From the NCBI GenBank assembly GCA_963971405.1, contig OZ020487.1, positions 16,961,344-17,025,343 on the forward strand: a stretch of 64,000 bases of DNA. Reading direction: 5' to 3'. The translations under genes and the position numbers were made by a program. Origin of the DNA: Psococerastis gibbosa. Taxonomy: Eukaryota; Arthropoda; Insecta; Psocodea; Psocidae. Positions 15,301 through 63,914 of this stretch are shown in pieces (position 1 is the first letter of the stretch; each line of letters begins with the position of its first letter). The notes beneath the pieces were generated by a model. That model did no database searches. It was not told where the DNA came from and was given only the letters and a program-made list of their open reading frames with translations.

Positions 15301-18053
15301 TTGACGAAGGGTTAGGAAATTCACTATCATATCGACCACGGCCTATCAGCCCGGATTCTACTGGTTCTCCATATACCTATAGAGTATTTTCCTCTTTCAG
15401 ATGGATCTCAGTGCTTTCATCTTCCATTGTGATTTTATGTGCTGTTCTGACTTGGGTCTGCATGTTCTGGGACAATACCAGAGCTTTTTCCTTCAGAGAT
15501 ATCCCAGCGCCCAACTGGCAAAGTGCAGGAATAGCCTATGGAATCCTTGCATTCCAAGTTGCATGCCATCCGTGTATTCTTGCAATCCAGGCTGACATGA
15601 AAAACAAGAAGGAACTTTCTCAAAGTGTTTTGTGCAGTTTTTTTGGTGAGTATGCATTGATCACTGGTCAAAAATTCCGTCATTTTTTATTAAACATCTC
15701 AACTTTTTTTAATCACAAATGACTGAATTGTTGACCAATGGAATACCCGCCTTAGTAATACTTGACGAAAAATAAAAGAAGAATGTCGGCAAAATAAATG
15801 TAGAATGAAATTAATCATAGAAAGCGAGAGATCTTTGACCATATAATACTATATATAACAAAATATTATATGGTCTAAGGGTGAGATGGTACATTTGCAA
15901 CCGCTAAGAATAATTTTTGAAAATCTGGGGTACCGTACGGTATACTTTCAAACATTGACAGATCCCGTCGTGGCTGCCATGCATGCTATGATTCGATTGG
16001 TTGAAAGATTAGGCCTATTTGCTGCTTGGTCGAAGAAGGCGGCACCAGAAATTAAAAAAAAATTCTTTGCCGGGAGTGGGAGTCCCATTTCTTATATTTA
16101 GAGCCGTACTTATTAAACTTAACAATAAGGAGGCAACACAGTTGCATAATCATAATCCTGAAGTGATTGGGGTCTTCCTGGCACCCCAAGAAATATATAA
16201 TTTTGCTACTTAATTCTTTTGGTATAGGCCCTATGCTTCAGTTCAGGTGGGAATCTCCCAATCATTATTGAACTCTAAACACTGCAAGTTACCCTTACTA
16301 GCTTCTGTCCCATGCCCCCCCCCCCCCCTTGACTATATATTGTACTATATATTCATATTTATCTAATGTCTTTCTATTATTTTCCAGTGACTGGAGGTCT
16401 TTTCATGACAACTTCTTTACTGGCAATGTCTCTATATGGTGCGGGAGTGAAGGCCAATTTGACACAGGGTCTGCCAGGGTCACTGGTACTCTATATGGAC
16501 ATCGTTCTCATCACTCTTCAGCTATTTCTGTCGACAATAGTTGGAGGATGCCCTATCTTCCAGGATATTGAAGACAAGTTAAAAATTCCTCAAGGTATAC
16601 CTATAATAATATTATAAGTTGCAACCTACCATAACGGAAAATAATAACGGGCCCGGGGGTTTAGTTTATACCATATTAACATGGTATCATATAGCTGCAT
16701 CATAGAAGAAACCATAGGTTAATCGACCTGGGCACCCAAGAAAAGAATATCTACAACCTACAACAAGTGAATGTAGGAGCCAATACATACTAGGAGCTAA
16801 AGAGGGAGTGCCAGGACCGAGGGGAGTGGAGGCATCGTTGCCTCATAATACCACAATTCAAAACGTCGCTATTTAAACACTCCCAGGCATACATATATTT
16901 CAATAAAGGTCTATAACTCCATCCCTCTATCAATTAAAAAAGCCCCAAGTCTCAATATATACAAGTCCCTTATAAGGAAGTCTATTAAAATTATCATGCG
17001 AAATTACCAGTCCCGAATTGCCTTGCTAAAAAGTTAATGTTAAAAGTTAATGTTCATTTTAAAATTCATTTTATTATATTATATTTTATTTTTGTATTTT
17101 AATAACACGCATGTATTTTAGTAACTTTAATAATTTTAATAATTTAAATAGGTACGTTGTTTTTAATAATGCGACCTGAAGTTAATTGTTTTGTAACAGA
17201 ATTTTAAAAGAATTTATTTTGTATTGTAGATCAAGTGTTTAGAATAAGTTTTAATATAAATGTTATCTATTAGGTCGAGGGGCCCATCACGGGAATTCCC
17301 AAAGGTGCCCCTCTGAACCACTAATGAAATGTATGTAGAATGTATTCCTCGATAAATAAAATTTACTTTACTTTACTTTACATGTTACTGCCAACCATAG
17401 CCAGCCGGATGTAATTTGAAGAAGAAGAAGAACGTGGTGTTAAAACTAATCCGCTGATTTGAAAGTGAAGAAAAAGACATTCAATTGTTTTGCCAAGTTC
17501 AGCATGCGTCTAGAAAATGCAGCAATGAAACAGGAATGAATCTCATTTTAAAATTCATTTTGTTGCAGATCTTTGTTGGCAGCGGTGTGTGTTAAGAACT
17601 TTCATCGTGATGTCAGCAGTTCTTCTGGCAGAAATGCTGCCGAGATTCGACCTAGTCATGGGCCTACTGGGAGGGCTATTCACAGGGCCAATCACCTTCA
17701 TAATGCCGCCTCTTCTATATGCAAAGCTTCGCTCAATGCTTCCGAAGCCTGCAACCGATTCAAAAAGGATTAATATTGCACATGATCCTACAGTAGAAGT
17801 GGTTACAGAATTTAAGTCAAGAAAAGAACTATTGAAAAAGTTTTTTAGGCGGCATTTTTTTACGTTAGAAGTTAATTTAAATGAAGGGGGTCTAAATAAT
17901 CTCGAGAAAACCGTTTCTTTTGGAATCATTATAGTTGGCCTGACTGCAACGATTTCTGCCATTTTCTTTAGTTTGAGAGGGGTCGTATGGACCTCGCAAT
18001 TTGTGCCCCCCTGTATTGTTGATGTAAAGGCAGCCTCAGCCGTTGTAACATAA
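9365..18053 (+). CDS. AAAP-family amino acid transporter (491 aa, seven coding exons)
   Basis: Coding exons are 9365-9536, 9881-10001, 10421-10533, 14770-14902, 15401-15645, 16388-16594 and 17569-18053. All junctions are GT-AG and the frame closes at TAA 18051-18053. The ATG lies one base after an acceptor, implying a non-coding 5' exon. The product has about 11 hydrophobic segments. TM1, broken as in this fold (FAVACIVDQFGINPIIVLPR, about 30-50), is followed by GWIGFPLAICVFALSIYTAM, then LLGRCW; later helices lie near 100-122, 153-173, 182-203, 218-240, 262-282, 294-315, 338-356, 360-385 and 448-470. This order and the GW...YT..LLGRCW signature fit the Aa_trans/AAAP superfamily (SLC32/36/38 and plant AVT/LHT relatives). 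The substrate cannot be read from sequence. It would sit in the plasma or an organelle membrane as a cation-coupled carrier. A hAT transposon occupies its third intron. Confidence 0.9.
10007..10420. repeat. Tandem duplication of an intron end, including the acceptor region
   Basis: Two diverged copies of about 200 bases (10007-10205 and 10206-10420) share AATATCGGCTAAAATTGCTT, CTCAAAATCAGCTTATATTT and CATACTACATATTGGTATTT. The downstream copy ends in the acceptor used by exon 3 (TTCTTTTCAG). The upstream copy ends in TTCTTTTGCACAG, so a decoy acceptor precedes the real one. Confidence 0.85.
10711..14538 (+). mobile_element. Complete autonomous hAT transposon, 3828 bp
   Basis: The element starts CAGTGCCGGGTTTGG and ends CCAAACCCGGCACTG, a perfect 15-bp inverted terminus. 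It is flanked by identical 8-bp copies of CTTGCATT at 10703-10710 and 14539-14546. Next to each end are runs of GGGCCC and GGGGCCCCCACA. Inside is one spliced, uninterrupted transposase gene (11497-14246). It lies in the transporter's third intron in the same orientation as the host gene. Without it that intron would be about 400 bases. Intact termini, an exact duplication and an open gene suggest a fairly recent insertion. Confidence 0.96.
11497..14246 (+). CDS. hAT transposase, ZMYM1-like type (848 aa)
   Basis: There are two exons, 11497-11736 and 11940-14246, with a GT-AG intron of 203 bases in phase 0; the open frame seen from 12006 is the second exon. A basic N-terminus (MDRHKGKREYASGSEKRK) precedes a TTF-type zinc finger near residues 165-220 (SWLCFSPSTGKLYCFYCKLL, then H...H). 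The RNase H-like catalytic core follows, with SVDSTTD near 353, GQSYDNASAMSG near 416 and CFNHSLNLVG near 447. The C-terminal hAT dimerisation region carries NISSERSFSVLKHIKNPRRT near 785 and ARLSHLSMLNINHD. The two Asp motifs and the SER Glu expected of the DDE-type triad are present, and no frame break was seen. It would excise and reinsert this element and could act on related MITEs. Similar proteins are often annotated as zinc finger MYM-type protein 1-like. Confidence 0.95.
17268..17385 (+). mobile_element. Probable non-LTR retrotransposon 3' end
   Basis: A G/C-rich patch (GGTCGAGGGGCCCATCACGG and AAAGGTGCCCCTCTGAACCA) is followed by TTCCTCGATAAATAAA and a (TTTAC)n tail at 17362-17380. 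This matches the style of a LINE 3' UTR ending in a short tandem tail. No reverse transcriptase frame lies upstream, so it would be a strongly 5'-truncated copy in the transporter's last intron. Confidence 0.45.
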
Positions 18054-27926: not shown

Positions 27927-28350
27927 ATGCAATTGTCCCATTGATCCAGGATTGGAAAAATTGAGACAGCCAAAATTTGACCCTAGAACTGGTATTTACG
28001 ATGGAACTCCCCAATTAATTACATTACGGTACCAATTATAACTGATAAATATGAGAGCATGTACGGTTGACTCGTACCGGTTCTTGTGATTTGCACTATG
28101 ACACAAGAGATGTGAATCAGAAAATATGCATGTAAGATCTATGGTCCCGAATCTAAGGACTCCGCCCTGTGTCTTATATGCGAATGGAAAGATTTTACTG
28201 TTATTTGCATAAGAAGAGTCTGCGTTGTGTGTGAGGTATGCAGCCAGGGGCGGGACGGGTCCGCGAACCTGACCCCAATATCTTCACCTTGACATTGCCT
28301 TATAGCGGAACCTACCCCGTCATCCTGAAACGTGTCTGCTCTCTGGCTAT

Positions 28351-29160
28351 ACAGATGCCAAAAACAAAACTTCTTCTGTACTTACTACATGTTGTAGTTA
28401 TAGCGATCTGAATCAGGCTTGATCTTTTAGATACGCAAGCTAAGAGCCCATTTATACAAAGTGAGAAGAAGATTAGCTTTCTGCTTGTAGGCCTATATTT
28501 ACAGATGCCGAAAACAAAACACTTTCTGTACTTACTGCATGCTGTAGTTATAGCGATCTGAATCAGACTTGATCTTTAGGTACCTACGCAAGCTAAAAGT
28601 CCATGCATTTATACAAAGTGAGAAGGAGATCAGCTTTCTGCTTGTAGGCCTATATTTACAGATGCCGAAAACAAAACACCTTTTGTACTTACTGCATGCT
28701 GTAGTTACAGCGATCTGAATGAGGGTTTTTCTTTTAGAAACGCAACCTAAGAGCCCATTTATACAAAGTGAGAAGGAGATTAGCTTTCTGCTTGTAGGCC
28801 TGTATTTACAGATGCCGAAAACAAAACACTTTCTGTACTTACTGCATGCTGTAGTTATAGCGATCTGAATCAGACTTGATCTTTTAGATACCTACGCAAG
28901 CTAAAAGTCCATGCATTTATACAAAGTGAGAAGGAGATCAGCTTTCTGCTTGTAGGCCTATATTTACAGATGCCGAAAACAAAACACCTTCTGTACTTAC
29001 TGCATGCTGTAGTTATAGCGATCTGAATCAGGCTTGTTCTTTTAGAAACGCAACCTAAAAGCCCATTTATACAAAGAGATTTTTCGAGCTGCAAAAGCAG
29101 GAGATTAGCTTGCTGTTTGTACGATTTATTTACAGATGTCAAAAAGTTCCATTTGAAATA
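28351..29160. repeat. Alternating 150/157-bp tandem array (higher-order repeat)
   Basis: The phrase ACAGATGCC(A/G)AAAACAAAAC begins units at 28351, 28501, 28658, 28808 and 28966, and a diverged sixth start lies at 29132. Spacings are 150, 157, 150, 158 and 166. Units 2 and 4 share an insertion (ACCTACGCAAGCTAAAAGTC, then CATGCATTTATAC) that units 1 and 3 lack, so the ancestral duplicated unit was a dimer. Confidence 0.9.
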
Positions 29161-45100: not shown

Positions 45101-48100
45101 TTGTTCGTACCTGAATGATAACTTCCGTTCTGTATGCAATCAGGTCTATAACTATCACAGACTAATGTCTTGGGACGAAAAACGAGGACTACACATGGAT
45201 GTTTTTAAGGTACGGTACTGTTTCATATTTTAAGTAACCTATGCACAGGCACACCGCATGCATGCACGTACATGACGACAGAAATCAACGCCATTATCCA
45301 TGGGCATAGCTAGGATTGAATCCAGAGGGGGGCAGGTGCAAATGTTCGATTAAATCGCTTTGTTTTCGCGCGTTTATTTGAAATTTTTTGGAATACGAAC
45401 ATTAAAATCTTATTCATTAAATCTAGTTTAGATTCCGTGCACTACAAAGAAACCCAATTATGTCTTGTGTTAACTTGTCAAATCTTTAGGGGGGGGGGGG
45501 GGGAGCGGCCCCTCTGCACCTCTCTGGCTACGCCTCTGTCATTCTCAATATACATAATATGTAGGCTATATTATATATTAAATCATAATATCATTATCAA
45601 TATCAATCACTAATGCTAATAACAGTAATATTTTTTTCAATGAAGTCATGATCTGGGAACCTAATACTGTATGTAGTTCTAGAGCGTGTGTCTGCAGTGT
45701 CGCTATTGAATTATAGGACATATAACATGGAAATAAAATAAACCCCGTCGCCCGTAGACTACCTAAATCTTGGTAGCTTGCTTGTACTTGTGCGAGTCTC
45801 TACAAGCCATGTGATAGGAGACGTGTCGTAACTCAACACCTATACAGAGGCGACTGAAGAGGTCAATCGGAATCATTAATTAAACTTTTGCATACGATTA
45901 ACCTTTTTTTAAAATAAAAATAAATAAAAACTAATAAAGAATACCTATTGGTTTTTTGTTCTTTTACATGAAAACGCATAATAAATCAGCCAGTACAAAT
46001 AAATTAATTAAAAATTTAAATTAAACAATCAGTACATTACATATACTCGTATTAATGCTTGCTATCATTTACAGTAATACCTACCTAAAGTTACAAGTTT
46101 CCTACCAAGGTATACCTTGGCCTTTGGTAATTTATTCGAATGAAAGTCACATTGACATAAATTGAGTTGAATTTATACAAGTGCAGTTCTAGATAGGATG
46201 TGATTTCACTTGTTTTCGTATATTACTGGTGTAAATTGAAATGGGAACAATGTAAAGTTGTAATATGGTGATGTTATTGAATTTATACAGGTTCCAAGCT
46301 GTTGCTCGTGCCACGTGCAAGGCTATACAACGCGACTCCCTCCGAACGACTATCCATTCGCTGAAAAGAGAAAAGAAGTTCTTCCCATTGGCCCACCGTC
46401 GGTATGATTATTTATTTATTAGAAGTAGATGGGGTTTAGGTCTGAAAAATGGTCGAGGCTCCTCTTTCTAATTTTTCTTGGCCAATTATGATTTTTTCAT
46501 CCATCCGTCCGCCAGTATGGTTAATTGAGAAACCGTGGGCTTAATGAATACCTAATTATCGATTTCATTAAAAAGGTTCTTAGGCCGTATCTTTATCTGG
46601 ACTTTTTAAAGGGGTGTTGACGAGTTACCTTCAAACGAGTGTTTGTAATTTTAAATTGCTTTCATATTGTGACGAATTCAATTAAGGCTTTAATTTTGAT
46701 ATTGTTACTATAAGTTAGTTTTTTATTATTACATTTGCAGAGCTCTGGGGTGAAGCGAGAAATTCCAAGGCCGGGAAGGCCAGGCGCCTCAACACAATTT
46801 CAAAATATCCATTCTCATGTGCCACCGAAAGAACTAAATACACCCTCCAGTGAATTTTCAATCGAACAATCCATCTCAGAATATCATCATTACCCACCAG
46901 TTCAAAGCCAATCTATAGTCACCCAGAACAACTTCGTAGGTCTTGACGTTCAGCCAACCACACAAAGCATTGCTTTCCCCCAAAATACAAGACTGCGTCC
47001 ACAGCAACAAAGTCAACAGCATCCGCATCCGCCGAAATTACATCAGCAATTACCTCAATTTCCTGCCTCTAATTTTAACTTTAATCGGCCACAAAATTCA
47101 CAAAACTTGCAAAAGCAACCTCCTACTGGTTTCCCACAGCGACCACATTTTACTGACGTCCATGAAAGTGGAAGTATAAAAAACACAATTCATACTCCTG
47201 TGGGGCTGGTTGATCATCTAGTACCTCCTGGTCCGCCTTTACTTTTGGAGCATGAGAAGACGCCAGTCTTTGATAATAGAAGAAGAAATTTTACTACGAA
47301 CAGGTAGGACTAAACTGTGATGCAAAATATACGAAAACTTGCTAAAACTGTAGCTTAGTAGCCTACAGTAAAATCAATAAATAAATATTGACTTTTTTGG
47401 TTCTATTACTAAGCCCGCTTAGCAGAGTTAGTATTGGGGTGCAACACAGTGTTTAAGGAAGTTAATACGATGAACGATATTTAAAATTTAAGTAACGCTT
47501 TCATGTTATTATTTTATTCTTGTTATTAGCCTATTTAAATTATTATTATTGAATCGACTGGTGTATTTAGCCAAAGATTCGAAGATAATAATAATAAAAA
47601 TTATAACTAGATAAGCGTCACTTCGAGCCTAATTCCGTATTAAATAATTTAGGGAAGATTTATATAATTTTATAGCTGATTTTTTCATTGCAAGTCGACT
47701 CTAATATTAATACTTTCTAGAGATGATTAAAAATTATTATTAACAATTTTGTTTAGGTATCAAGAAGGCCAGCATATTGATAAGAACTTCAATAACAAGA
47801 TCCCCATGCTCTCTGAAGAAGCTGCAGCACCAATCTCACCTATTCCAGTGCCTATGCATGAAAGAACGAGCCCTCCGAGCGTTAGGTTTCCTGAACAACC
47901 AAGACCTACACCCAGTCAAACTCAAGAAAATAATAGAGTCACCTTCAAACCAGCCGAGAATCAGATATTTGGCTCTAAGCTCCATACTAAACCACCTCAA
48001 AGGCCTAACAGACCAGTGTTTGTAACTCCAACCCCTTCTTCGAGCGATACCAGAGGAGGCCTAGACAGTGCAATTAAAATTACCCCAAAGCCATACAAAA

Positions 48101-48549
48101 AATTCCCGTCTCACCCATCAAAGAAGATAAACTATAATTACCATCCAATCATAGATTTCTTCTCCAGAGACGCCCATCTGACTGATAGGCAATTTCATGT
48201 TCAGTCTTCTCATCGACATCACCAAAAACCAAAACCATCACATATTCATCATGAAGTCAAGCAACAGCAGAGTCAACACCACGAACATAATGTTTTCCTT
48301 GAGACGGATTCTCAGCATCGTCAGCAAAAGCCCTTTCATCATATGCAGCAAAACATGAACATCCAACAAGACATTAGACTTCATCAACAACCATTGGAAA
48401 GGCACCACCAGAAAACAGTTGGAGTAGAGCCCGCAAATAACCAACACCAGCTTTATGCAGAGCGTAAAATGGACTCAGACAATTTGCAATCTGATATTGT
48501 TCGACAGCCAATTGTGCAAAATAATAACGAATGGACCCCAATGCTTTGA
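30102..48549 (+). CDS. Spaetzle/neurotrophin-1-like cystine-knot ligand precursor (874 aa)
   Basis: There are twelve coding exons: 30102-30125, 36907-37012, 40109-40276, 41357-41479, 42073-42330, 43090-43171, 43460-43573, 44579-44737, 45086-45209, 46291-46401, 46741-47303 and 47757-48549. All are GT-AG and in phase; the exon-5 acceptor could be 12 bases further in. Residues 1-19 (MNVVLILTVILLVKIADCG) look like a signal peptide. Residues 20-291 form an acidic, poorly conserved prodomain ending in basic RIQRRR, a likely furin-type site. The Spaetzle domain spans about 305-405, with WKFVVNTGEYTQTLRLEMC and VYNYHRLMSWDEKRGLHMDV, and seven cysteines at 307, 344, 351, 362, 390, 391 and 393, including the SCCSC signature. 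Residues 424-874 are a cysteine-free Pro/Gln/His-rich tail. A C-terminal extension after the knot recalls Drosophila NT1 (spz2) rather than spz. The family binds Toll receptors in immunity and neural development. AATAAA follows at 48622. Confidence 0.93.
30545..30809. mobile_element. hAT-like MITE, CAGGGGCGTAAAGTT ends
   Basis: The left end CAGGGGCGTAAAGTTGGGGG and the right end AACTTTACGCCTCTG are inverted. GGTCTACA flanks the left side (30537-30544) and recurs two bases beyond the right end (30812-30819), so the exact right boundary is uncertain. Internal AAATGCGTAAAACCCTACTA is shared with the 25830 and 33017 elements. Confidence 0.75.
32213..32331 (+). repeat. Single arm of the foldback repeat seen at 48748-49083
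   Basis: ACTAACACAAGTGGGTTTCT and the following 100 bases match 48966-49083 with only a few changes. Here it occurs once, not as an inverted pair, next to a C tract at 32184. Confidence 0.85.
33017..33368. mobile_element. hAT-like MITE, CAGGCGCGGAACTA ends
   Basis: The ends CAGGCGCGGAACTA and TAGATCCGCGCCTG are inverted. The flanks GGTCTGAG (33009-33016) and GACCTGAG (33369-33376) match at six of eight. The interior shares AATAGTGGGGTTATGCGCAT-type phrases with 25830-26064 in the opposite orientation and has runs of G, C and T. Confidence 0.75.
35500..35662. repeat. Tandem duplication, about 86 bp, two copies
   Basis: TTAAAATCATACCGTACCA, GGTTGCCTCTAGCCATTCCT and TATAGCCTATCTATC occur twice in a row, with copies beginning near 35503 and 35589. 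Confidence 0.85.
37125..37565 (-). pseudogene. Non-LTR retrotransposon pol C-terminus, one stop codon
   Basis: One minus-strand frame encodes ATFRMATGHDFL, a TAG at 37335-37337, then KHLHRIGVVDSPLCPLC, FTSKGTAEHLATCD and a basic tail. The order of an RNase H-like segment (TGHDFL..HL.RIG) followed by a CxxC...H....C finger is typical of the end of many LINE proteins. The internal stop and the missing upstream domains mark it as a dead fragment. It lies antisense in the second intron of the spaetzle-like gene. Its 3' end resembles the fragment at 21413-21470. Confidence 0.8.
37988..39019. mobile_element. Non-autonomous DNA transposon, TCCCCTTCGCTCCTGA termini
   Basis: Perfect 16-bp inverted ends (TCCCCTTCGCTCCTGA / TCAGGAGCGAAGGGGA) are flanked by TA at 37986-37987 and 39020-39021. 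Two internal palindromes of the form TGTGCCAC-NN-GTGGCACA occur near 38341 and 38899. A degraded frame at 38411-38941 encodes acidic fragments but no recognisable transposase. The CCCCTTCGC-type end recalls piggyBac-like elements, but the TTAA target is not intact, so the superfamily is uncertain. Confidence 0.75.
39433..39616. mobile_element. hAT-like MITE, CAATGGCGGATCC ends
   Basis: The ends CAATGGCGGATCCA and TGGATCCGCCCTTG are inverted. The flanks GAGCATAG (39425-39432) and GAGCATAT (39617-39624) match at seven of eight. It is the same family as 7541-7696, sharing GTCATGACTCCCCCTAAATT-type phrases, with a run of 11 G's. Confidence 0.85.
40560..41030 (+). repeat. Dispersed repeat with GACAGACAGAC run and TTTGGGTTCCTGGGACC
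   Basis: A GACAGAGCGACAG / GACAGACAGACA run is followed by CATTTTGTAAAAACCACTTT, TTTGGGTTCCTGGGACCTCA and a block ending TATACTACTACGTATAAA. The same order recurs at 63195-63425, and the last block recurs near 60650-60730. Its family is unknown to me; it is probably the end of a retroelement. Confidence 0.6.
43613..43792. mobile_element. hAT-like MITE, CATGGCCGTAGCCAGG ends, two poly-G blocks
   Basis: The ends CATGGCCGTAGCCAGG and CCTGGCCACGGCCTTG are inverted. The flanks AGTGCCGA (43605-43612) and AGTGCCAA (43793-43800) match at seven of eight. TTTCGGGGGGGG occurs twice, 110 bases apart. It lies in the intron after coding exon 7 of the spaetzle-like gene. Confidence 0.85.
43853..44040 (+). 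repeat. Dispersed repeat with a 60-codon open frame
   Basis: This is the plus-strand counterpart of 600-788. One frame, open from 43847 to 44038, reads KIRDHHDNLEI, KREVVLLPNHCLRVFNQDVL and SPSFYLPLEYYMQK. Conservation of KI.D.H.NL and S.SFYLPL between the two copies suggests descent from a coding sequence. It lies within a spaetzle intron but has no splice sites in the right phase to be an exon of that gene. Confidence 0.5.
44193..44366. mobile_element. hAT-like MITE, CAAGGACGGAT ends
   Basis: The ends CAAGGACGGATACA and GGATCCGTCCCTG are inverted. The flanks GTATCGCC (44185-44192) and GTGTCGCC (44367-44374) match at seven of eight. Runs of C lie near both ends. It belongs with 22768-22974. 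Confidence 0.85.
45299..45538. mobile_element. hAT-like MITE, CATGGGCATAGC ends
   Basis: CATGGGCATAGCTAG and TGGCTACGCCTCTG are imperfect inverted ends. The flanks CCATTATC and TCATTCTC match at six of eight. It has a run of 14 G's and lies in the intron before coding exon 10 of the spaetzle-like gene. Confidence 0.6.
45770..45920 (+). mobile_element. SINE-like repeat (family B), copy 1
   Basis: It shares GAGACGTGTCGTAACTCAA, CAGAGGCGACTGAAGAGG and a CGATTAACCTTTTTTTAAA 3' end with 57445-57617 and 58655-58825. About 150 bases, non-coding. Confidence 0.75.
47372..47440 (-). mobile_element. SINE family A, 3'-end fragment
   Basis: AATAAATAAATATTGACTTT, GGTTCTATTACTAAGCC and CTTAGCAGAGTTAG match the 3' portion of the SINE at 1845-2074. 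The head is absent, consistent with 5' truncation. Confidence 0.65.
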
Positions 48550-50115: not shown

Positions 50116-53100
50116 TTAGTTCATTTCAGATGGGCTGGTAGTGAGCCTTGGAAATATTGAGCTTTCGGAAGGAAATGAGGCGTAAGTCTGACTGGCCTGT
50201 ATATTAACGGTTTCTTCTTCCCCTGCTTCCTCAGTGTCTTCAGAGCTACTGTCGTCGACTTCAGAGGGAGATAATGTTGATTTCAAAGCAGGATGAACAT
50301 ATTGGTTTTGTATATTAGGCTTATGTTTCGATTCTTCAGAACTAGCAGAAGCGCCAGCAGAAACAGATGTAGAACTAGTGCGTTTTGGAGGCCTTGAAAG
50401 TTTTTTAGTCACACTGCCAGCTAGTTCTTCCTTTTCACCGATATCTTCATCAATCTTTGTAGTTAGTTTTGGACCAGTCGTCAGTGAGTTTTGCTTGTGT
50501 TGAGCTTCAGTACTAGGGATAACGGGGCATGGTGAGCTGGTCTCAATGCTTGATACATATTCTTGTTCGCTACCTTCTTCCTTGTCGGTCCCCTTTGCTT
50601 CTTCATATGTTCCTTCTTCGTTTTTGCGTGTTGTGTACTCATTACCATCGCAATCTTCAAAGTATTTGCCCTTTGATAGTAGTAGTCGAAGATATGCGCA
50701 CAATTTGGGGAACTTTTCTATGCTGACTTCTTCCCCGTGAATAATTTTTGATACAATTTGAAAAGCATTCCAACTGTCAATGTCAGGAAATTGTGGATAT
50801 TCTAGTGTTGGTAGAGAGTCCTGTTCATGCTCCATGTCTGACACATCTTTCTCGGATGGTGATGTTGTGTCAGCGCAGCCTGCTAAATTGTCGTTGTTAA
50901 ATGAACTTGGTAATTCATCTTGGGGCTGAGCCGCTGTGTTGCCGTCCCATTCACTACTAAACTGTTCTGAATATAGGGGAGCCGGTTTATACTCCAATTT
51001 GGGGTACATTTCATACTTCTGAACGTTCTGTTCATCATATTCTTCGCAGGATGGTTTAGTTGTTTCTTCGTTGTTGTAATAAGAAGTCTTTAAGGAATCG
51101 ATTAAAGCAGTTAATATTCCCCAGCCTGATTCAGGCTGCTCTGACCCAATTGGATCTCCTGTATTAATTAAAGGAGTACTATCTGTGAACTGTTGAGGGT
51201 TGTCAGTGGAACAATTTTCACATATTTCGCTTTCTGTTAGAAGTTCAACAGGAATCGAAATGTTATGCTTTACATCGTCAGTCCCTTTTATGATGTTGAT
51301 AAGGTCGAAAATACTATCCCAAATGTTCGATGTTTCTTGAGTTTGAATTGTTACTTCTTCTGTGGTAGAGCAGTGTTCACAACTATCTCCACTTTCAGGC
51401 TTGTCAATTTTTTTAGGAGATGGTATAAAGGCACCATTAATACTGGGCTGTCTATCGTCAGGTTCTTCTGTACCAAATATGTTCATCAGTTCAAAAAAAT
51501 TCTCCCAGTTACTTGCAGGCTGATCTATTTGTGTTTGTGATTTGTCAGTGGTTACTTCGCTCTCAGGGAAGCTATCGGTTAAACAATCTTCACAAATCTC
51601 ACTTTTTGTTGATTGCTTATTAAGCTTATTTTCCAATTGCAATACATCAATATTTTTTGTTTCAGGGGCAATTGTCTTAATTATTTTGATTACGTCGTTA
51701 AGTTTCACGCATTTGTTATCTATTTCTGGAATTTGAATAAATTCATCTGTTATAACTTCAGGCAGGTTCTCAGCTACTTTTTCAGGAGTTGGTTCAGGCT
51801 TATGATGGTTTTTTGATATTTTGTTTCGAGGAACTATTGTCTTTATTGTATCAATAATTTCTATAAATTTCCACAAGTAACTCACTGTCTCTTCATTTTG
51901 AGTCGCAACTTCCGTAGTAATCTCTGGTAGATAATCAATTGCTACTTTAGAATCAGAAGCAATGGAACAATTTTCGCACCTCTCTTCACTTTCAATTCCA
52001 ATATTGTCATGAATTGTTGGCGTTTTTGCTTCCGGCGCTAATGTCTCTTTTGTGTCACGTATTTTAAAAAGTGGTCCCCATGGATTTTGTGACTCATTTT
52101 TGAACGTAGCTTCATCTATGGCAATTTCAGATGCATCATCAGTAATTAATTTAGAATTAGTAACTTTTCCGTTGACACAATCTCCGCAGCTATCATTTGC
52201 AGTAATATCGTCATTAAATATCGGTGTTTCACTCTCCTGAATAGTTGACTTTATTAAACCAAGTAGCTCTAAAATATTCCCCCAGTTGCTCGCAGACAAT
52301 TCTGTTTGATTCACAAAGTCTCCTGTAATGTCGGATGAATCATCAGTCGTAACATGAGAATTGTTGGCTTTTTCACTGGAACAATCTCCACAGCTCTGAT
52401 CACTTTCAGGTGAATGACCTGAAGTAATATCGTCATTGATAACTCGTGTTTCGCTTTCTGAGATGGTTGACTTTAATAAGTCAATTAGTAGCTCAAAACT
52501 TTCTCCCCATTTGCTCGCTGACTCTTCTGTTTGAATCGCATTGTCTGTAGTATTATAAGGTAGATTGTCAATCGTTTTGGGAGAATCAGAGACTTTTTCA
52601 ATGGGGCAATCTTCACAGCTCTTATTACTTTCAGTTTTATGGTCCCCATCCTCAAGTAACAATTTATCATTATTTCCTTGTGCTTTGTTTCCAGGATCTG
52701 TTGTCTTAAAAATATTGATTAATTCTATAAATTTACCACCCCAGTTACTCACGAAATCTTCTGTTCCGTCTGAAACATCGGGCATAGTCTCAGATGAATT
52801 ATTAACCGCAAGTTGAGAAGCATCAACTTTCTCCAAGGCGCAATCATCACAATTACCACCATGGCTTACAACATTTTTTATATTGTCGGAAACGTCTGGC
52901 CTTATATGTCCATCTCCTAGGGGATACACATGGTGAATTAATTTTATGGCGTCAGCAAGTATTTTCATATAATCCACACTCAAAGGGGGTTGGTTAATTT
53001 CGGTATTTGATTTTATTTCGTTCAATGGAAGAATAGCCTCTTCATTATCCGAGTCTGTTGGTAAACTTATTGAATTTCCTGGGAAACAGTCATCACAGTC

Positions 53101-55366
53101 CTCTTCAGTAAAAATGTCTTCATCTTTCGTGTTCAATTGTGTATTTTTGTCTGAGCAATATTCAGAATCACACATCGATGCAGTTAAATCGTCTAATTCA
53201 GGTTTAGGCTTGTTGCCCGATTTATGACTATTACTACATGGGTGAAGGCTGGACTCACTCATAACTGCAGATAAAATTTTGGTAAGTAATGAGTAGGTTC
53301 CCTTCCTTGCATGAGATTCGTCGTTTTGTTGTATGACTGTTATAATGTTTTGAATTGGTGATAAGTTGTGTCCGTATCGATTGAGCTGATTCTTGGCTGA
53401 TTGGTTGCTGTCGCCACTGCCAGGGTTTAACAGTGATCCCAGTAGACATGGGAAGTTTTGTGAGACTGAAATTAAATAATAGCTCGGTCATAAAAATGTC
53501 GATAGTTGAATGTAAAATCTAACATAAGAAAAATTACGTTACAGCAATCCAGCAGGCAATCAAATTTATGCGAATTGTATCTCCACCAAATGGCGCAGTT
53601 TAGCTATATTGGATACAGTATTTATATATTACATAAAGTGCTTATTCTAATTCTTATAGTATGGTCTTCTTATTCACTGTAAATGAAAGCCCGCATATAC
53701 ACTTTCATATTTTACAATATTATGAATGTATGAAAAGAGAAATACAATACAGAGTGAGCCAATGTTATTGTACAATATAAACCTCGATACCGAGATTCCT
53801 ATATAGGCTCACTCACATTTGAATATTTGATAGAACAACTGGATGGTTCATACAATCGTGTAGACTCCGCATACATTTGATACATGATACAAATGAACAA
53901 AGAATTGAATAGAATAGAATGACTTACGCCACTTTGGAGTTTTGGGGTGCTTGGGGCATAAACTGTCGGAGTAAGTATTAGAGTCTTCCCCCAGGACAAT
54001 GATGGCGACATTGGGCTTGCAGATGTGTTCCTGAGCATATTCACATTCACTCTTCCTTTTTTGTGATTGACTGTGACCTGTGGATATCCGTTCAGTCACC
54101 ATTAAAATGATTGCAGCCTAAAACATGATTTACTTCATTACTAACAAAACCATTTTGAATATGTATAGGCTACAGTACCTACTCTACATTACAATATCTT
54201 CGCGGGTTTTTACTTCTTTGTAGCGAATATCATGGAACCATACTGCAAGGATTCAATAGCAGGCCAGCTTATTATAACTTATAGTAGTTTACAAGAATAC
54301 GTAGAAAGGAATTCGTGGTGGATAAACGGTTCAAATATTTTGTAGATGTCACAGGCTTTCTGTGGAATGGCCAATAGTCCATTTGCAAAATTTCGTAGAC
54401 TTAAAATAAATTGTCGTAACAATCATTTATAAAAATGTTGTATCAAAATGTTTACATAATAGGCTAATTGTCAGTAGTGGTAGGTATAGTCTAACTTAAC
54501 CTGTCCAAGACCCAGAGCATTATTCACCTTTATAACTTCCTCCTAATTTTCTACAGTTCCAGAAAGATGACCTACCAGCACAAAATCGTGTAGGCGTTAT
54601 TGAGTAGGATACACTGTATCATAATTGCTTCAAGGGTAGAAGGTTGATGAAGTTAACGATATCTATAACCTACTGTGCACTGTGTACACTATTTTCATCC
54701 ATTTCCTATTTGTCTCTCTCTCTCTTCAAGTTACAGCCGGATGATGGCTGGTTGGCAGCAACATATTGCAGCGATGTCTCCAGTCTCCGCGATTTTGACA
54801 TGCCCTCTTCAGCTCCACATAGGACGTTATCCCCAAATCATTTTTAACTTGTTGGAGATATTCGTTTCGTGGCCGTCCCCGTCGATTTACGCCTTCTATT
54901 GTCCCTTCAATGATGCAGCTGACTAAGTTATCATGCCGAAGTAAATGTCTGATCCAGCGTGTCTAGACCCACCTTTTACTCGTCTTCGAAGGAAGACCTT
55001 ATATTGTAGCCTACTTCCTTTTATGAATTGCACTCAATAATGATTTTTTTTAAATTACGTCAATTATACACAATAAAGGCCAACACTACTTGCAATATTC
55101 AGGAATATTTAGAACGAAATAAATGAATAAATAATATTGATTCGCAATATGTATAGTACTAATATATAGTACAATACATTAAATTAATGCTTTGTCGAAA
55201 GACTCAGCATTGTAGTGTTGAACTAAAGCCTGTACGATCCTATAGCCAGTAGGCTGTCTAATATACAATAGATTACTCTAAATGATTCTGCGTTAAAATG
55301 CCTTTTCATCTGACAATTTGGTTTGCAAAATGAAATACAAAGACAACTCACATGAAAAATCCACAT
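50116..55366 (-). CDS. Secreted acidic CxxC/W repeat protein (1117 aa), unrecognised
   Basis: Three coding exons on the minus strand, 55366-55352 (MWIFH), 54117-53928 and 53264-50116, have GT-AG junctions and close exactly in frame (3354 bases). The methionine at 53262 is therefore internal. MWIFHAAIILMV resembles a signal peptide, implying secretion. Residues about 25-60 hold CEYAQEHIC and LGEDSNTYSDSLC, reminiscent of a Kazal domain but lacking one cysteine. From about 110 to 810 the chain consists of about nine degenerate 75-90-residue repeats. Each has a CxxC (CDDC, CEDC, CGDC, CENC, CEHC), a Ser/Thr/Asp/Glu-rich stretch, and a segment such as SNWG-KFIELINIFKTT or SKWGESFELLIDLLKST. The C-terminus is Ser/Glu-rich. 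I know no family with this layout. The first exon is inferred from phase and hydrophobicity; the other two are firmer. Confidence 0.8.
54726..54959 (-). pseudogene. Non-LTR retrotransposon C-terminal fragment
   Basis: The minus strand reads RWIRHLLRHDNLVSCIIEGT, then IEGVNRRGRPRNEYLQQVKN and YVELKRACQNRGDWR, ending in TGA. This is the standard C-terminal segment of many LINE endonuclease-reverse transcriptases (W.GH.LRHD.L...IEG...G.RGRGRPR). It is related to but distinct from 56548-56934, and lies in the first intron of the acidic-repeat gene in the same orientation. Confidence 0.85.
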
Positions 55367-55604
55367 ATCCGCAGTCTAATTTACTTGTAGGCAAGACTCT
55401 TATACGTACACTACAACATTTCATAAGCAATGAAAGAATTTAGCAGGGGCGACCATATCTACGGAATGATTATGCAATTACTATTACAATATTATTAAAA
55501 AGTGAGAGATTAAAATACTAATATACAACAGGCACCTCCTAGTCTCCTACGCCGCAAAGTGATACCAATTATTTTTTTTAATAAGTAAGCTGACGCCTGA
55601 CCTA

Positions 55605-55748
55605 AGGCGGGGTTTACACATACGTCAATGGTCAATGGTAAATGTGGTATTGACGTTTTAGCAGACATTAAAGACATACTAAAAATGTTTGCTACCACGT
55701 CAAAACCATATTTACCATTGACCATTGACGTATGTGGAAACCCCGCCT
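55605..55748. mobile_element. Hairpin MITE with TA duplication
   Basis: The ends AGGCGGGGTTTACACATACG and its near-inverse, with TA on both sides (55603-55604 and 55749-55750), bound a 144-bp near-palindrome. The core GCAGACATTAAAGACATACT matches those of 27773-27926 and 789-1174 in one orientation or the other. TA duplication and long inverted repeats fit a Tc1/mariner-type non-autonomous element. It lies about 240 bases upstream of the acidic-repeat gene's inferred first coding exon. Confidence 0.9.
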
Positions 55749-56547
55749 TACGCAATTAAAACCGTCACAAACAGGAAACATCATCATCAAAATTAAGCAA
55801 TTAACTGGGTCTGAAAGGCTTGAAAATTGGTGGTACGATTTCACATTTTTCACATTACAGAAAAAATTCAAATTACAAAAGAAATATCGCCGACATAGCA
55901 AATGAAATAAAATAATTTTGTCAAGTATCACTAAAAGCGTCAGGCTATAGACATACAATACAATATTACTGAAATAGTCTACATAGGTTGTAATTTGTTG
56001 AGCAGTTCTGCTGCCCCCCTCCCCCCCCCCTTAAGACCTTTGGTGCGCCCTACCTTGTCTCATTATTTCATATTTTTTATGAGTGATAGTCAATAGTTGA
56101 AAGAGAAGAAAAACAGTTTGTAGCATAAATAATAAAAAGTAAGCTAATGGAAAACGTAGGTACCAGTCTACTACCCTGGTACTACCAGAATAAAGTAACA
56201 GTAGAAGTAGCATGTCATTGTCTCAAACTTTTATTAAGACATATCTCAGTACAACAGATTTTAGATGTAAGATCAAGCATAAAGCTGAAATACTGGGATG
56301 ATTTAAATTCAGCTCTAAGTTTTTTTTAGCACAAGCCTGGAACTAGGAGTAGAAGTGCGCCCCCAGCAATCTTCCCCCCCCCCCCTGTGCACCCCGGGGG
56401 TTGCGGGGGGTGTTATTTATGCCATTGCAAGAGCGCCCGCACTACAGCCGAGAGCCGATAGTATTGGTCGCACTGCTACAGGACCAAACTTGGTAATGTG
56501 CACAGCGTTGGCAGGAGAACATGGTGGGACATGATAACGCGCTGAGA

Positions 56548-56934
56548 CTAAACCAGTCCGGTATGCAGCAAACCTTTCCACCTCCTTCTCCACTCCTCCC
56601 TGTCTTGGGCCGTTCTCTTGAGTTCCAAGTAGGTTCCGCATCTCATATCTTTCTTGAGGTCTTCTGCATACGCCTTCTTTGGTCCTCCTCTTGCATTGGT
56701 GCCTTCGATTGTGTCTTCTATTATGGTCCTTAAGAGTCCTTCTTGTCTGATCAGGTGACCCATCCATTTTGCTCTTCTCACCGAAATGGAGGTAATGAGG
56801 GATCTTTTATCGTTGATCCTTTGAAGTACCTCTTCGTTCGTTATGTGGTCTCTCCAAGATATTTTCAACATTAAAAGAAATACTCGTCTAAATTCTGTTG
56901 TACAGTATGTGGTCGTCACACCTATTGGCCCCAA
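56548..56934 (-). pseudogene. Non-LTR retrotransposon C-terminal fragment
   Basis: One 128-codon frame reads ISWRDHITNEEVLQRINDKR, then RRAKWMGHLIRQEGLLRTII, then ARGGPKKAYAEDLKKDMRCG and AQDREEWRRRWKGLL. This is the typical LINE reverse transcriptase C-terminus. It is open to its natural stop, but the polymerase and endonuclease domains are absent, so the copy is 5'-truncated. Confidence 0.9.
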
Positions 56935-57155
56935 TAGCTTAACTTAATTTACGTTTGCCTTTATTTTGCTAGCATTATTGAATAATATCTTAATCTCGGA
57001 CATGATACATTTTTTTCTGTTCCTGCGGGGGCGTATACTAAATTTCCAATGAGTCAGGCCTGAAGCAGTTGCCTCAATGACCTCATGGCGCCCATCAGAA
57101 CCAAAATTCTACTTTGAATAGTCCACAATGTTTGCAAGAGCCTATTAAGAGTGTA

Positions 57156-57431
57156 CAGCCCGTAGGAAATTGGCAGCCCGAAATTTATTACTTTTATTTT
57201 TTATTTAATTAACTAAGCAAGTCGATCGATTATACGTGAAAAGTAATTGTTTATCAAATATTATCATGTTTATGAAAAACCTACAATTTCGAATACTAAA
57301 AATACCTCATTATATGATTCATGAAGTAGTCTTCTACAACTTTAATGAGCCAAATCATTAATAACATGCGTAGTTCATTAAATAAATAATAAAAAGTATT
57401 AAATTTCGGGCTGCCAATTTCCTACGGGCTG
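57156..57431. mobile_element. Non-autonomous DNA element with inverted CAGCCCGTAGGAAATTGGC ends
   Basis: CAGCCCGTAGGAAATTGGCA and CCCGAAATTTA at the left are exactly inverted at the right end (57398-57431). The 276-bp element is AT-rich and non-coding. No clear target duplication was seen. A family-B SINE lies directly downstream. Confidence 0.8.
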
Positions 57432-57444
57432 CACACACTTAAGT

Positions 57445-57617
57445 CGACTTCGATGGCCAGGTGGCAACGTACTTGCACTTGGGCGAGTCTTAACACGCCA
57501 TGCGATCGGAGACGTGTCGTAACTCAAGACGGGCACTAACCTACAGAGGCGACTGAAGAGGCCAATCGGATACATTCATTAAATTGTTCGTATGCGATTA
57601 ATCGTTTTTTTTTTTAA
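57445..57617 (+). mobile_element. SINE-like repeat (family B), copy 2
   Basis: TGGCCAGGTGG at the start could be an A box and GGGCGAGTCTT a diverged B box. The body (ATGCGATCGGAGACGTGTCG, CAGAGGCGACTGAAGAGG) matches 45770-45920 and 58655-58825, and the 3' end is a T run followed by AAA. tRNA ancestry is only suggested. Confidence 0.75.
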
Positions 57618-57948
57618 AGCTAAGTAGAGTAAGTTTTCTGTGGTAGCCTACAATGATCATTTTTGCAATACTCTTTGAATGAATGTCTTCTCATTTTCTA
57701 TAAAAGGCTATATTTCCTATTTTTGTTAATTATAGCGCACGACCATTTGGGCGTTTCATTTCTGTCTTGTTGCTTTTTCGCCTGACGACGGAGACATGTT
57801 GCTCATTTTCTAGGAAGGGTTAGGAAGGGAGGGGTAGCAGCCGCACCCTGTCCAACCCTGTTGACGGTATTGGCTACAATATGATACGGTACAAAAAAAA
57901 TACATTCTTCTAATTTATTTATTCAGCATATGCAAGCAGCTCAAAATT

Positions 57949-58339
57949 TTACCCTACATTAACAGCGTTATGGATATTCATATTCTCCCGAATTGACCCT
58001 CTCAATCGCGTTATCGACGCATCGCGATGCATTTCCCTCGCAGCTTCTGTTTTCTCCTGCAAGTGATCTTTTTCACGCCTTGCTTGACCTAACTCCTGCT
58101 TCAGTTGATCTAACTCTAATTGCCGCTTTAGATCGTCTAATTCTCGCTGCTGTTGCTGCTCCTTGAATTCATCCAAGCTCGATTTAACTCGGTTTCTAGG
58201 CTTTTTCATTCGAGTACTGGGCTGTATTTCATGTACAACTGGGACAGGTAGAGGCTGGTAGCTGCGCTGTTGATGTTTCTCAAGTGGTACGCCCAAATGG
58301 TAAGCGGCTCCGTTTAAAAAGCCCCCGGGAAGGATATAT
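57949..58339 (-). CDS. Terminal exon of a coiled-coil protein gene (paralogue of 61574-62174)
   Basis: A minus-strand acceptor (TTATCTTTCAG) opens an exon of 130 codons entered in phase 2. It starts YILPGGFLNGAAYHLGVPLE and ends in TAA at 57949-57951, with AATAAA about 30 bases further on (57923-57918). After a short Pro-rich link comes a charged helix (SSLDEFKEQQQQRELDDLKR, QLELDQLKQELGQARREKD). The G..L.GAA...GVP.E start and SLDE.K.QQ.QR..D.LK helix both match the exon at 61574-62174, so the two are paralogues or alternative ends. The upstream exon of this copy was not found. Function unknown. Confidence 0.75.
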
Positions 58340-58654
58340 CTGAAAGATAAGAATTTAGAAAGTAAATTAGAGGAAATTAAATAAGAAATATACTGTTGAA
58401 TGCCACCTCTCTTTCCATCTGCTGAACTGTAAGGAATTAACTTACAAAAAATAAGGATCTTGGTGTCACATGAGATGGTTTTTAGAACAGTTTGTAGGCT
58501 GTCATTATTGACGCTTTAAGGAGGTAAGTATGATTATAACGGTAATATTAGGGGTTAACAGTGCGAAAACTCTCAATAATTAAGAGAGTACCTACCTAAT
58601 TGCGTTTTATTTCTATATACACGTTTTTATAAACCCCTTATTAAATTTCAGCAT

Positions 58655-58825
58655 AGCAAGGTGGTAGTGAGCTTGTACTAGTGCGGGTCTTTACACGCTA
58701 TGCGATCGGAGATGTGCCGTAAGTCAACACGGGTATTAACCTACAGAGGCGACTGAAGAGGTCAATTGGATACATTAATTTAATTGTTTCTATGGGATTA
58801 ATCAACCGTTTTATTTAAAAAAAAA
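58655..58825 (+). mobile_element. SINE-like repeat (family B), copy 3
   Basis: It shares TATGCGATCGGAGATGTGCC, CAGAGGCGACTGAAGAGGTC and the GGGATTAATCAACCGTTTTA 3' end with copies 1 and 2. It lies between two terminal exons of the coiled-coil cluster. Confidence 0.75.
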
Positions 58826-58970: not shown

Positions 58971-59607
58971 TTATATGGAATAATGTTTCATCTTGCCATT
59001 GTTATATTCAAAATCAAATTTCTCGCCATTTCCGATTACTGAAGGAACATTTTGGCCCATGGATACATCTCTGGCGCTTCGCATATATTCTTTCATTTCA
59101 TTCAGTTGATTTTCATCAATAACAGGTTTATATTCATCATGTGTGTGTTCGTTTTGAGAATTAAGCATTCGGGAACCGTAGAAACTTCCTCTGTGCTGTA
59201 AATGCTTGGGAATGTTCTGTTCCTCCAATAAGGATTCACTTGCTTCTTTCCATTTAGATAAAATATTGCCTTCCTCAATATCATATTCGTCGGATGGCAT
59301 TGGTTCACCTTGAAAACGTATATCTTTATTGTTCATACTGCGGAAATTTTCATTATCACCAATCATGAAGTTTGAGGAAATGTTGTTTTTATTTAGTGAC
59401 TCCTCCGCCAAATTGCTAGCCGTCTGCAGTGCATCTGAGTAGATTTTATCTTTCGAATTCGAATTAAAGGCACGCGATCCCTTGCGACGAATACTGTTTG
59501 GGGGTTGGTCCAGTTGCAAACTATTCTTGTCAGTATAATTTTTCAATCCCAATTTTTTTAATATATCATTGAGGTCGTCTTCGTAATTGCCAGTATTAGT
59601 GTTTCCC
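58971..59607 (-). CDS. Terminal exon of an unrecognised hydrophilic protein
   Basis: A minus-strand acceptor (TTGTTTCAAG) opens a frame entered in phase 2 (one G, then GGA AAC ACT). It runs 211 codons (GNTNTGNYEDDLNDILKKLG, then a Ser/Asn/Glu-rich chain) to TAA at 58971-58973. The start GNTNTGN loosely resembles AGTNTTN in the small exon at 63857-63914, and the entry phase is the same as in the other two terminal exons of the cluster. There are no membrane segments or known domains. It may be a separate gene or an alternative end of a shared gene. Confidence 0.6.
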
Positions 59608-61573: not shown

Positions 61574-63914
61574 CTATGAAGCAACAGTGCCGACAGAAGT
61601 ACTTTTTGCTTTGCTCTTTTTCGGCTTTTTCGCAACATTTCCAGTCTGCACGTTGACGCTTTGCTGAATTACTGTCGCCGGTGCCGGAGGAGGAGCCACC
61701 ATTACAAATTTATCTTCACGCGGTGCTTCATGAATATGAATTTCTGTATTTTGAGTACTCTTATGGGTCTGCTGGTTGTTGAGGTTCCAATTCCGATTTT
61801 GCTGTATTAGATACTGCATGTCATCATATTCTATATCACGAGCCCTATCCCTTATATTGTTATAAGCACCGGTCACGCGCTCTTTCTTGTATTCATCTTG
61901 TAATAATTCTTGTTTTAATTTATTCAATCGGAGTTTATGCTTCAGTTCGTCAATGTCTCGTTGCTTTTGCTGGCGCTTGTATTCATCCAGCGAAGCTTTT
62001 TGTTCAGCAGATTCGAATTCGTCCTCATTACCCATGTCCCTGTCATTTCCGTCGTTGTATTCAATATGATCCCTTTGATAGTAGTACTCATGACCAAGGC
62101 CATGCTCGCCCCCATGTTGTTCTATGGGTACCCCAACCATACCAGCTGCTCCAGTTAAGGCACCACCGAGGAGCCTGAAAAAGAATGTTACACTATAGGG
62201 GGCCCATTCAAATTTAAGTCCATCAGTCGATACTCTTTTGATTCCTTGCTGCTGTTCGCTGTTTTTCATATTGCTGGTTGTTGTCCATCGTAAATGGCAG
62301 CGCAGGTTTGCCATCGGTCATTAGGTATCGTACTTAGTTATTGCATTATTTCCCAAGATGTGATAGATTAGTTTTTCTGCTTCAAGACAGTTAAGATTTA
62401 TGAAAAGTGTTAATCTTACAGCGATAGTTTAGGTAGGTACTTGTTTTATATTGCCATGAATTTATTATGCCAATATTGCCTACCATAGCCTATCATTGTA
62501 CCTCTCCATTGATATAGCAACTACACTTACCAACATATGTACTGTGCCATGCAGTTGGTTTGTTTTTGGCAAAAACTATATTATTTACACAATTATTTCA
62601 GCAATGTCCATAATTTAATATAGCCCTGTATTATTTTGTCGAAAAATATTATCTGATTTATCTAGCTAGTTTATAATGCCCTTAGGCGGCTATTCCACTT
62701 GTCCATATTCCGTCATTTATTCATCAATAATAAGTCTCTACCATGTTATATTTTTTGTTGAAAAGTTGAGTTTTATTCAATTTTTTTACTAGGTATCTTA
62801 TGAATTTACTATGAATCAACTCATTTAGGGGGGGGGGTCATGACCCCCCTGCCCCCCCCCCCCCATGGATTCGCCATTGCGTAATAGAGTCTCAAGATAA
62901 AAATAATCCACCCTTTCATTGTAATGGTTGTTTTTACTATTGAAAATAACCAACTAGGCCTTCAGATTATTCCCATTAAGTGTTGCATTTATAAATGCAA
63001 ATATGCAAACAGCTGCCAAGATTTTTTTTGTTTTTGTTAGTAATGGTTATACCTACTACTTTGCAATTGTACTAGTACAATACTTGCATGAGTAACCTGA
63101 CCTATTGGGTGACTTATAAATTAGTATCATTATAGGTCTATGTGAATTTAAAGGTGAAAAATAAGGGGAAATCTCCCGAAATAAATTATGTTAGCCCGAA
63201 ATAAATAAAAAGTTCCGATTCATGATTTTTGTGAGCATACATGCCAAATTTTTATAAAAATCCACGAAGTACTCATACTTCGCCTACAAATCGATAAACA
63301 GACAGACAGACCGATAGACTACGTTTTTGGGTTCCTGGGACCCCAAAACGAGCATATCCACTGAAATCTTAAAAAATCCAAGCTTTCGAGCAATACAAAG
63401 CTTTCTTTATACTTAGCATTGATAGGAATTCAAAAATGAATGTTTCTCAGGAGTGGGAAGTATGGTAAATAATAAATAAATAAATGTTATAATAAACGGA
63501 AACAGTAAGTAAGTAAGTAAGTAGCTTCTATGATACTGCCGTCAGTTGCGTAGCTTGGATCATCAAGTGCACGCAAATAATAATAAAAAATGAATTAATG
63601 TAAGTTCATCGTTAGAAGCCACCTATTATGGGTACGCCTAATTTTGTAACAGAAAATTTTGAAGCAAACATAAAGCAAATATAAGTTGACTCGGACCAAT
63701 TTAAGCCAGAAAAAATGCAGTGCAACATTGTTTTGAACAAAAATGAAAGATAGTAGACTGACGAGCACACTGCGTATAACCCGAAAGAGTTTCATGGATA
63801 TAATAAATTTCTTTATATTATTACTATTATTATATTATTGTAATGAAAACACTTACCCCAAAGTCCTTCTACCAGTAGGTGGTAGTTCGTTTGTCGTATT
63901 GGTTCCTGCGTCAC
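61574..63914 (-). CDS. Coiled-coil protein gene, last two exons (partial, unrecognised)
   Basis: The exon 63914-63857 (DAGTNTTNELPPTGRRTL plus GG) has an acceptor GTGTTTTAG and donor GTAAGT. It joins 62174-61574 in phase 2, making GGG, and stops at 61574-61576. The second exon starts LLGGALTGAAGMVGVPIEQH, then has an acidic Tyr-rich stretch (EYYYQRDHIEYNDGNDRD), a long charged helix (ASLDEYKRQQKQRDIDELKH, KLRLNKLKQELLQDEYKKER), and a tail with PPPAPATVIQQSVNV and basic KKPKKSKAK. The open frame continuing right of 62174 is intron read-through. The 5' end lies outside the window. It is a paralogue of 57949-58339. No known domain; a structural or scaffold role would be a guess. Confidence 0.75.
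62692..62880. mobile_element. Partial MITEs: hairpin-family arm and CAATGGCG-type element
   Basis: CTTAGGCGGCTATTCCACTT at 62692 resembles an arm of the TA-flanked hairpin family. From about 62740 to 62880 the sequence matches 7541-7696 in inverse orientation (TTTTTACTAGGTATCTTATG, GTCATGACCCCCCTG), ending CATGGATTCGCCATTG. The left terminus of the second element is not recognisable. Confidence 0.55.
63195..63425 (+). repeat. Second copy of the GACAGACAGAC / TTTGGGTTCCTGGGACC repeat
   Basis: AAACAGACAGACAGACCGATA, TTTTTGGGTTCCTGGGACCC and CTTTCTTTATACTTAGCATT occur in the same order as at 40800-41030. It lies in the intron of the partial coiled-coil gene. Confidence 0.6.

Follow-up and report, generated by a model that had tools for sequence, protein, structure and literature searches.

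What kind of protein is encoded on the minus strand at positions 50116..55366 of a stretch of 64,000 nucleotides from the insect Psococerastis gibbosa (contig OZ020487.1; this whole stretch is called here the window)? An earlier note, made from the letters alone, had proposed a large secreted protein built from about nine degenerate repeats, each carrying one CxxC pair and a tryptophan-led amphipathic segment. We found that the gene encodes an array of tandem units, diverged from one ancestor by internal tandem duplication, in which the cysteine pair is the best conserved element. Tentatively, with a confidence just short of even, we consider that the product could be a multivalent acidic secreted scaffold, mostly disordered, linked by disulfides and hydrophobic helices and restricted to its lineage.

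The array lies in a single open frame of 1123 codons running from 53487 to 50116 on the minus strand, at the place that the note had given; when these 3.4 kb were shuffled 200 times by mononucleotide, the longest of all the frames, six being considered, had 173 codons. Nine CxxC pairs occur within residues 192-820, in the order CDDC, CDDC, CEDC, CGDC, CGDC, CENC, CEDC, CEHC and CENC, in agreement with the about nine pairs, mostly of the form C-[DEG]-[DNH]-C, that had been proposed. Residues 178-870 contain 9 such pairs, to be compared with a mean of 0.49 and a maximum of 5 in 20,000 shuffles. When residues 181-880 were aligned with themselves off the diagonal, the best score was 485, while two sets of 200 shuffles each, one full and the other confined to 20-residue blocks, both peaked at 92; the periodicity is thus far above that of shuffled acidic sequence, the comparison on which the repeats had been staked.

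Unit boundaries were obtained by cutting 14 residues before each CxxC, a long unit being split by eye into units 6 and 6b, and unit 7 was aligned from residue 680, that is, without its first residue. The ten units resulting from this procedure are 53-82 amino acids long, rather than the 75-90 residues first estimated, and the starts of neighbouring CxxC pairs are separated by 53-128 residues. In leave-one-out profiles, whose rows were drawn from an alignment that had contained the left-out unit, nine units scored 20.5-62.3 bits (0 of 1000 shuffles each reached the score) and unit 1 scored 4.6 bits (18 of 1000). Nine units are firm, eight with CxxC and one (unit 6b) without it, and one CxxC unit (unit 1) is doubtful. 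The expectation of one CxxC per unit holds for nine units, one of them a weak member, and fails for unit 6b.

Following the protein, and therefore descending along the minus strand, the array starts with the weak unit 1 (residues 178-259, positions 52894..53139), which has CDDC and a tyrosine near the place of the tryptophan. Then come, with leave-one-out scores in bits, unit 2 (260-337, 52660..52893; CDDC, W310; 54.3), unit 3 (338-412, 52435..52659; CEDC, W388; 62.3), unit 4 (413-480, 52231..52434; CGDC, W463; 54.2), unit 5 (481-550, 52021..52230; CGDC, W531; 40.9), in which the helix segment is degraded, and unit 6 (551-615, 51826..52020; CENC, W600; 53.8). Unit 6b (616-678, 51637..51825; 25.6) has a single cysteine at the head of the helix, because C654 occupies the place of the tryptophan of most other units. 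Unit 7 (679-749, 51424..51636; CEDC, W722; 30.6), unit 8, the shortest (750-802, 51265..51423; CEHC, W784; 20.5), and unit 9 (803-870, 51061..51264; CENC, W850; 28.3) complete the array. The C-terminal region (871-1184, 50116..51060) is acidic and rich in serine and threonine, with five scattered cysteines and two tryptophans, and its status as a unit is unsupported. Extra units were looked for in residues 60-130, 131-188, 871-925 and 926-1000 (for the last two by unit-profile scoring against 200 shuffles each) and rejected, since the 25 best rows were all shuffles and the real segments were not among them. Residues beyond 1000, covered by the whole-window profile search only, gave one non-significant match, and no further unit or paralogue was found elsewhere in the window, the best outside match having an E of 2 with the profile and 3.7 with tblastn.

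In the eight units possessing both elements, the distance from CxxC to tryptophan is 36, 36, 36, 36, 35, 29, 20 and 33 residues. The tryptophan falls in alignment column 64 in seven units, and one column further in unit 6. Both cysteines of the pair are kept in nine of the ten units, with mixed TGT and TGC codons, and their two columns are the only ones conserved at 90% or more. Identity to unit 3 among the other units is 16-49%. What is constrained is the layout and not the full sequence of the unit. In units 3-5, the best-kept neighbouring copies, stretches of DNA are still 71-74% identical to those of the adjoining units, at a spacing of 204-225 nt (units 3 and 4 share 71% over 155 nt), and therefore the array grew by tandem duplication. 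When the units are compared two by two, nonsynonymous divergence is the lower of the two kinds in 42 of 45 pairs, synonymous divergence exceeding it, and the median ratio (dN/dS) is 0.625 over the 36 pairs that have finite values; among the nine adjacent pairs, six have ratios of 0.45-1.05 and three are saturated.

Exon 3, with the stop codon, extends over 50116..53465 and encodes the repeat array together with the remainder of the N-terminal segment and an acidic tail rich in Ser and Thr; an AG acceptor precedes 53465 and AATAAA signals are found 725-751 nt past the stop codon. Upstream, candidate exon 2 (53928..54117, 190 nt, minus strand) has an AG acceptor and a GTAAGT donor and would encode what remains of the hydrophobic leader, together with an N-terminal stretch that has cysteines at residues 30, 38 and 59. 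Because an in-frame TAG stands directly upstream of it, a 5' exon or an internal methionine start is needed. When 54118..57900 was scanned for start codons (ATG) with a phase-0 donor of at least 7/9 no more than 180 nt further on, six options emerged, of which 55352..55366 has the best donor (CAT followed by GTGAGT, 8/9), the other five scoring 7/9. This candidate exon 1, of 15 nt and five codons (MWIFH), would be the probable start of a signal peptide, and the reading frame is preserved from exon 1 to exon 3. The spliced candidate model has 1184 amino acids (131 kDa, pI 4.4), and replaces the product of 1117 residues proposed before. With the best-donor first exon it contains the hydrophobic leader MWIFHAAIILMV, which on the basis of candidate exon 1 is probably a signal peptide, the protein being in that case secreted; the hydrophobic stretch AAIILMV of exon 2 lies near the N-terminus in all six options.

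The chain is indeed acidic, as the note had it: 214 Asp and Glu face 97 Lys and Arg, with Asp plus Glu at 18.1% and Ser plus Thr at 19.3%. According to a charge-hydropathy composition rule, which is not a dedicated predictor of disorder, the whole protein scores -0.078 and 72% of the core residues have negative, disorder-prone values; the linkers are acidic and probably disordered. In residues 21-160, which include cysteines 30, 38, 59, 75 and 145, the score is negative in just 40%, and for this reason the N-terminal segment may be a small folded domain. Concerning the tryptophan segments, the helical moment at 100 degrees, averaged over ten stretches of 14 residues that start at the tryptophan or at the residue in its place, is 0.372, against 0.248 in shuffles and reached by 11 of 5000 of them, a difference that the alignment-based choice of the stretches favours somewhat; among the angles tried, the best is about 110-115 degrees, and the moment is 0.16-0.21 at 160-180 degrees. 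A looser pattern (tryptophan, then hydrophobic residues), drawn after the sequence had been inspected, occurs at 7 places in the core, compared with a mean of 0.65 and a maximum of 4 in 5000 shuffles, and at 8 in the whole protein, the extra one at 967. The ending K-[ST]-[TI] assigned to these segments exists at 7 places and closes the helix in just five of the ten units.

How could such a chain work? Internal tandem duplication produced a chain of about ten diverged units of about 70 residues, in each of which the CxxC pair could form disulfides, either within the pair or between chains, and the short amphipathic helix led by tryptophan might pack against further helices. The acidic linkers, rich in Ser and Thr, would act as spacers that may also be glycosylated or hold calcium. 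What varies least is the cysteine pair and the hydrophobic, Trp-led amphipathic segment, both borne by a flexible acidic chain, a combination that outside the cell would fit a polymer of this sort. With many units per chain, the protein could behave as a multivalent polymer of stickers and spacers, setting after secretion into a gel, film or coat; a saliva sheath, a silk-like or cement-like secretion, an egg coat or a lining are candidate products. The multivalent scaffold suggested in the earlier note, extracellular and capable of disulfides, remains in our opinion the best reading.

Several observations weigh against this scaffold. No relative was found in the collections searched. The leader depends on the candidate exon 1 of 15 nt, and alternative first exons are possible: in four options ending at the donor at 55716 (7/9), among which is a one-codon exon at 55718, the most hydrophobic window scores a little higher (2.63, compared with 2.49 for candidate exon 1). 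There is also a histidine in the middle of the leader. The segment W-x-x-[FIL]-x-[EL]-[LI]-[IL], as originally written, is found at one place only. Tryptophan is not universal, being present in eight of the ten units, and the helix of unit 5 is poor (hydrophobic moment 0.16, the lowest of ten), so that the helix may matter less than CxxC. Finally, the dN/dS ratios are approximate, saturation being near at synonymous sites; 9 of the 45 pairs could not be computed and the pair 6b/7 has a ratio of 1.05.

The strong divergence between copies and the lack of a family match would also be expected of a fast-evolving secreted effector or decoy, where each unit would act as a small module binding a target that belongs to a different organism or to a mate, the repetition serving avidity. 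The neighbouring exons likewise reach the cut-off of no Pfam family, one of them having a leader-like exon upstream. However, the synonymous excess in 42 of the 45 pairs is evidence against general diversifying selection between units, and we regard this explanation as unlikely. We give a lower probability to a secreted protein that binds or buffers metal, its linkers holding calcium and CxxC pairs of different units holding zinc or copper. At least one Asp, Glu, Asn or His stands between the cysteines in all nine pairs and Asp plus Glu make up 18.1% of the chain, but the starts of neighbouring pairs are separated by 53-128 residues, and no histidine appears among the unit-alignment columns with at least five equal residues, leaving no conserved histidine column to complete a four-ligand site. 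Cysteines outside the cell are oxidised as a rule, Pfam gave no match for exons 2 and 3, and the zinc-finger match of a single unit is at chance level; the metal chemistry that the note had offered beside disulfides gained no support.

If the leader exon were misassigned, the product might be an intracellular acidic protein bearing short linear motifs. Candidate exon 1 has just five codons and other donors exist; moreover, W-x-x-[ILV] motifs dock on adaptor proteins, and five of the eight tryptophan-bearing units fit this pattern. On the other hand, the best-donor first exon yields a hydrophobic leader, and the fact that the cysteine columns are the sole ones kept at 90% or more fits better with oxidising surroundings, so we judge an intracellular role improbable, a shade more so than metal binding. 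The constant order of the repeated units would also fit a precursor polyprotein from which some ten small peptides are released by cleavage. Dibasic positions number only 7 over the 1184 residues; a single one (753) falls within the array, and they do not recur from unit to unit; on these grounds the precursor was rejected, and we assign it hardly any probability. The scaffold of disulfides and hydrophobic helices remains the reading we prefer.

Relatives were searched for in several collections. Exons 2 and 3 matched 0 Pfam-A families at E values up to 10, and the ten single units matched three families, one member each, with a best E of 0.034 (zinc-finger, one of ten members), which we take as chance; no Pfam-A profile match to a known family therefore contradicts the proposal. 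Among PDB sequences, exon 3 retrieved three NSL1 chains (best E 0.083, also taken as chance) and the unit profile two chains (best E 0.47). Searching phages by tblastn with exon 3 gave no relative. When six short peptides from exon 3 were back-translated and used as patterns, prokaryotic contigs gave 8 matches, 0 of them confirmed by tblastn, and viral contigs gave none. Since none of these collections is a good place to look for an animal protein, this lack of relatives says little about novelty. Likewise, the matches listed in the open-licence literature, as far as their text was available, contained no description of this layout, which says little on print at large. The claim of an undescribed family is not established, and relatives may be present in public databases under the label of uncharacterized proteins. 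As a repeat protein, the product belongs to a broadly familiar kind, and its unit layout found no model in the libraries. With secreted, disordered tandem-repeat proteins, a kind and not a family, it shares tandem units of common ancestry and a disorder-prone composition.

As regards the surroundings of the gene, the window has the look of genomic DNA from an animal; its GC content is 34-41% in 2-kb steps, transposon-like frames are present, and tRNA and Rfam scans of the 64 kb gave no match at the gathering score. Two exons on the minus strand, 57949-58515 and 61574-62317, are paralogues (29% identity over 172 amino acids, E 9e-16), sharing a segment GG-x-L-x-GAA-x(3)-GVP-[IL]-E-[QK]-H and a charged stretch similar to a coiled coil; neither belongs to a Pfam family at its cut-off. 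Between them, the minus-strand frame 58971-59607 ends in a stop and is possibly another secreted protein, and upstream of it, near 61097 on the same strand, a hydrophobic signal-like translation runs into a GT donor. Genes for secreted proteins specific to the lineage may be clustered in this area. An element of 166 nt flanks exon 57949-58515 in two copies, 80% identical (57453-57618 and 58653-58818). On the plus strand, the Gln/His/Pro-rich open frames 46714-47307 and 47731-48549 (197 and 272 amino acids), without a Pfam family at cut-off, are possibly exons of one gene running convergently toward the repeat gene. The Pfam scan of window neighbours covered ten other frames and revealed an Aa_trans amino-acid transporter segment at 17529-18053 (E 1.5e-10, above the cut-off), a weaker Aa_trans piece at 15273-15722 (E 1.5e-4, below it) and a DUF4371 frame at 11940-14243 (E 1e-19) resembling a hAT-type transposon. 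Satellite-like tandem arrays occupy 2566-3324 (periods of 166 and 339 nt) and 28350-29076 (150 and 307 nt), each including a two-unit period.

A more specific hypothesis, which we consider doubtful, is that of an undescribed repeat family combining a disulfide and an amphipathic helix as a double sticker, in a redox-set gel or coat, within a local group of secreted proteins specific to the lineage. If the redox-set secreted polymer were true, the unit would amount to a simple scheme, found in nature, for building gels from protein, with a covalent and a hydrophobic sticker on an acidic spacer, and a gap in domain libraries would be filled, given that no Pfam-A match was found. If this is just an orphan repeat protein, it joins the numerous fast-evolving secreted proteins of invertebrate genomes, and its interest is modest.

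It is useful to compare the candidate with systems already known. The two cysteines have the CxxC spacing of thioredoxin and protein disulfide isomerase, but units here have only 53-82 residues and are mostly disordered by the composition rule, and a thioredoxin-like domain was discarded, no thioredoxin-type match being found in Pfam or PDB sequences. The Balbiani-ring silk proteins of chironomids are large, secreted and repetitive, with regularly placed cysteines; their cysteine layout and composition appear to differ from those of the repeat protein. By description, a functional analogue of the proposed scaffold is the aphid sheath protein SHP (ACYPI009881) of gel saliva, reported at 130 kDa in one paper and 154 kDa in the other (PMC3462764, PMC5156713). 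According to the accessible parts of these papers, gel saliva is thought to harden by thiol oxidation and disulfides of this large high-cysteine protein, and sheath formation is incomplete with dithiothreitol (PMC3462764, PMC5156713). Our model measures 131 kDa and has 31 cysteines (2.6%) and a hydrophobic leader. The CxxC-Trp unit is absent from the SHP description in those parts of PMC3462764 and PMC5156713, and the host studied here is not known for sap feeding. The planthopper protein NlSP1, in the portion of its report available, is acidic (pI 4.79) and repetitive, with a predicted signal peptide and no homologue in its authors' BLAST (PMC7481525). Acidity and repeats are common to NlSP1 and the candidate model, and a signal peptide is probable in the latter. 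However, NlSP1 has 445 amino acids, four-residue repeats, no cysteine and two domains predicted by its authors (PMC7481525), while the protein described here combines 1184 amino acids, CxxC pairs and far longer units.

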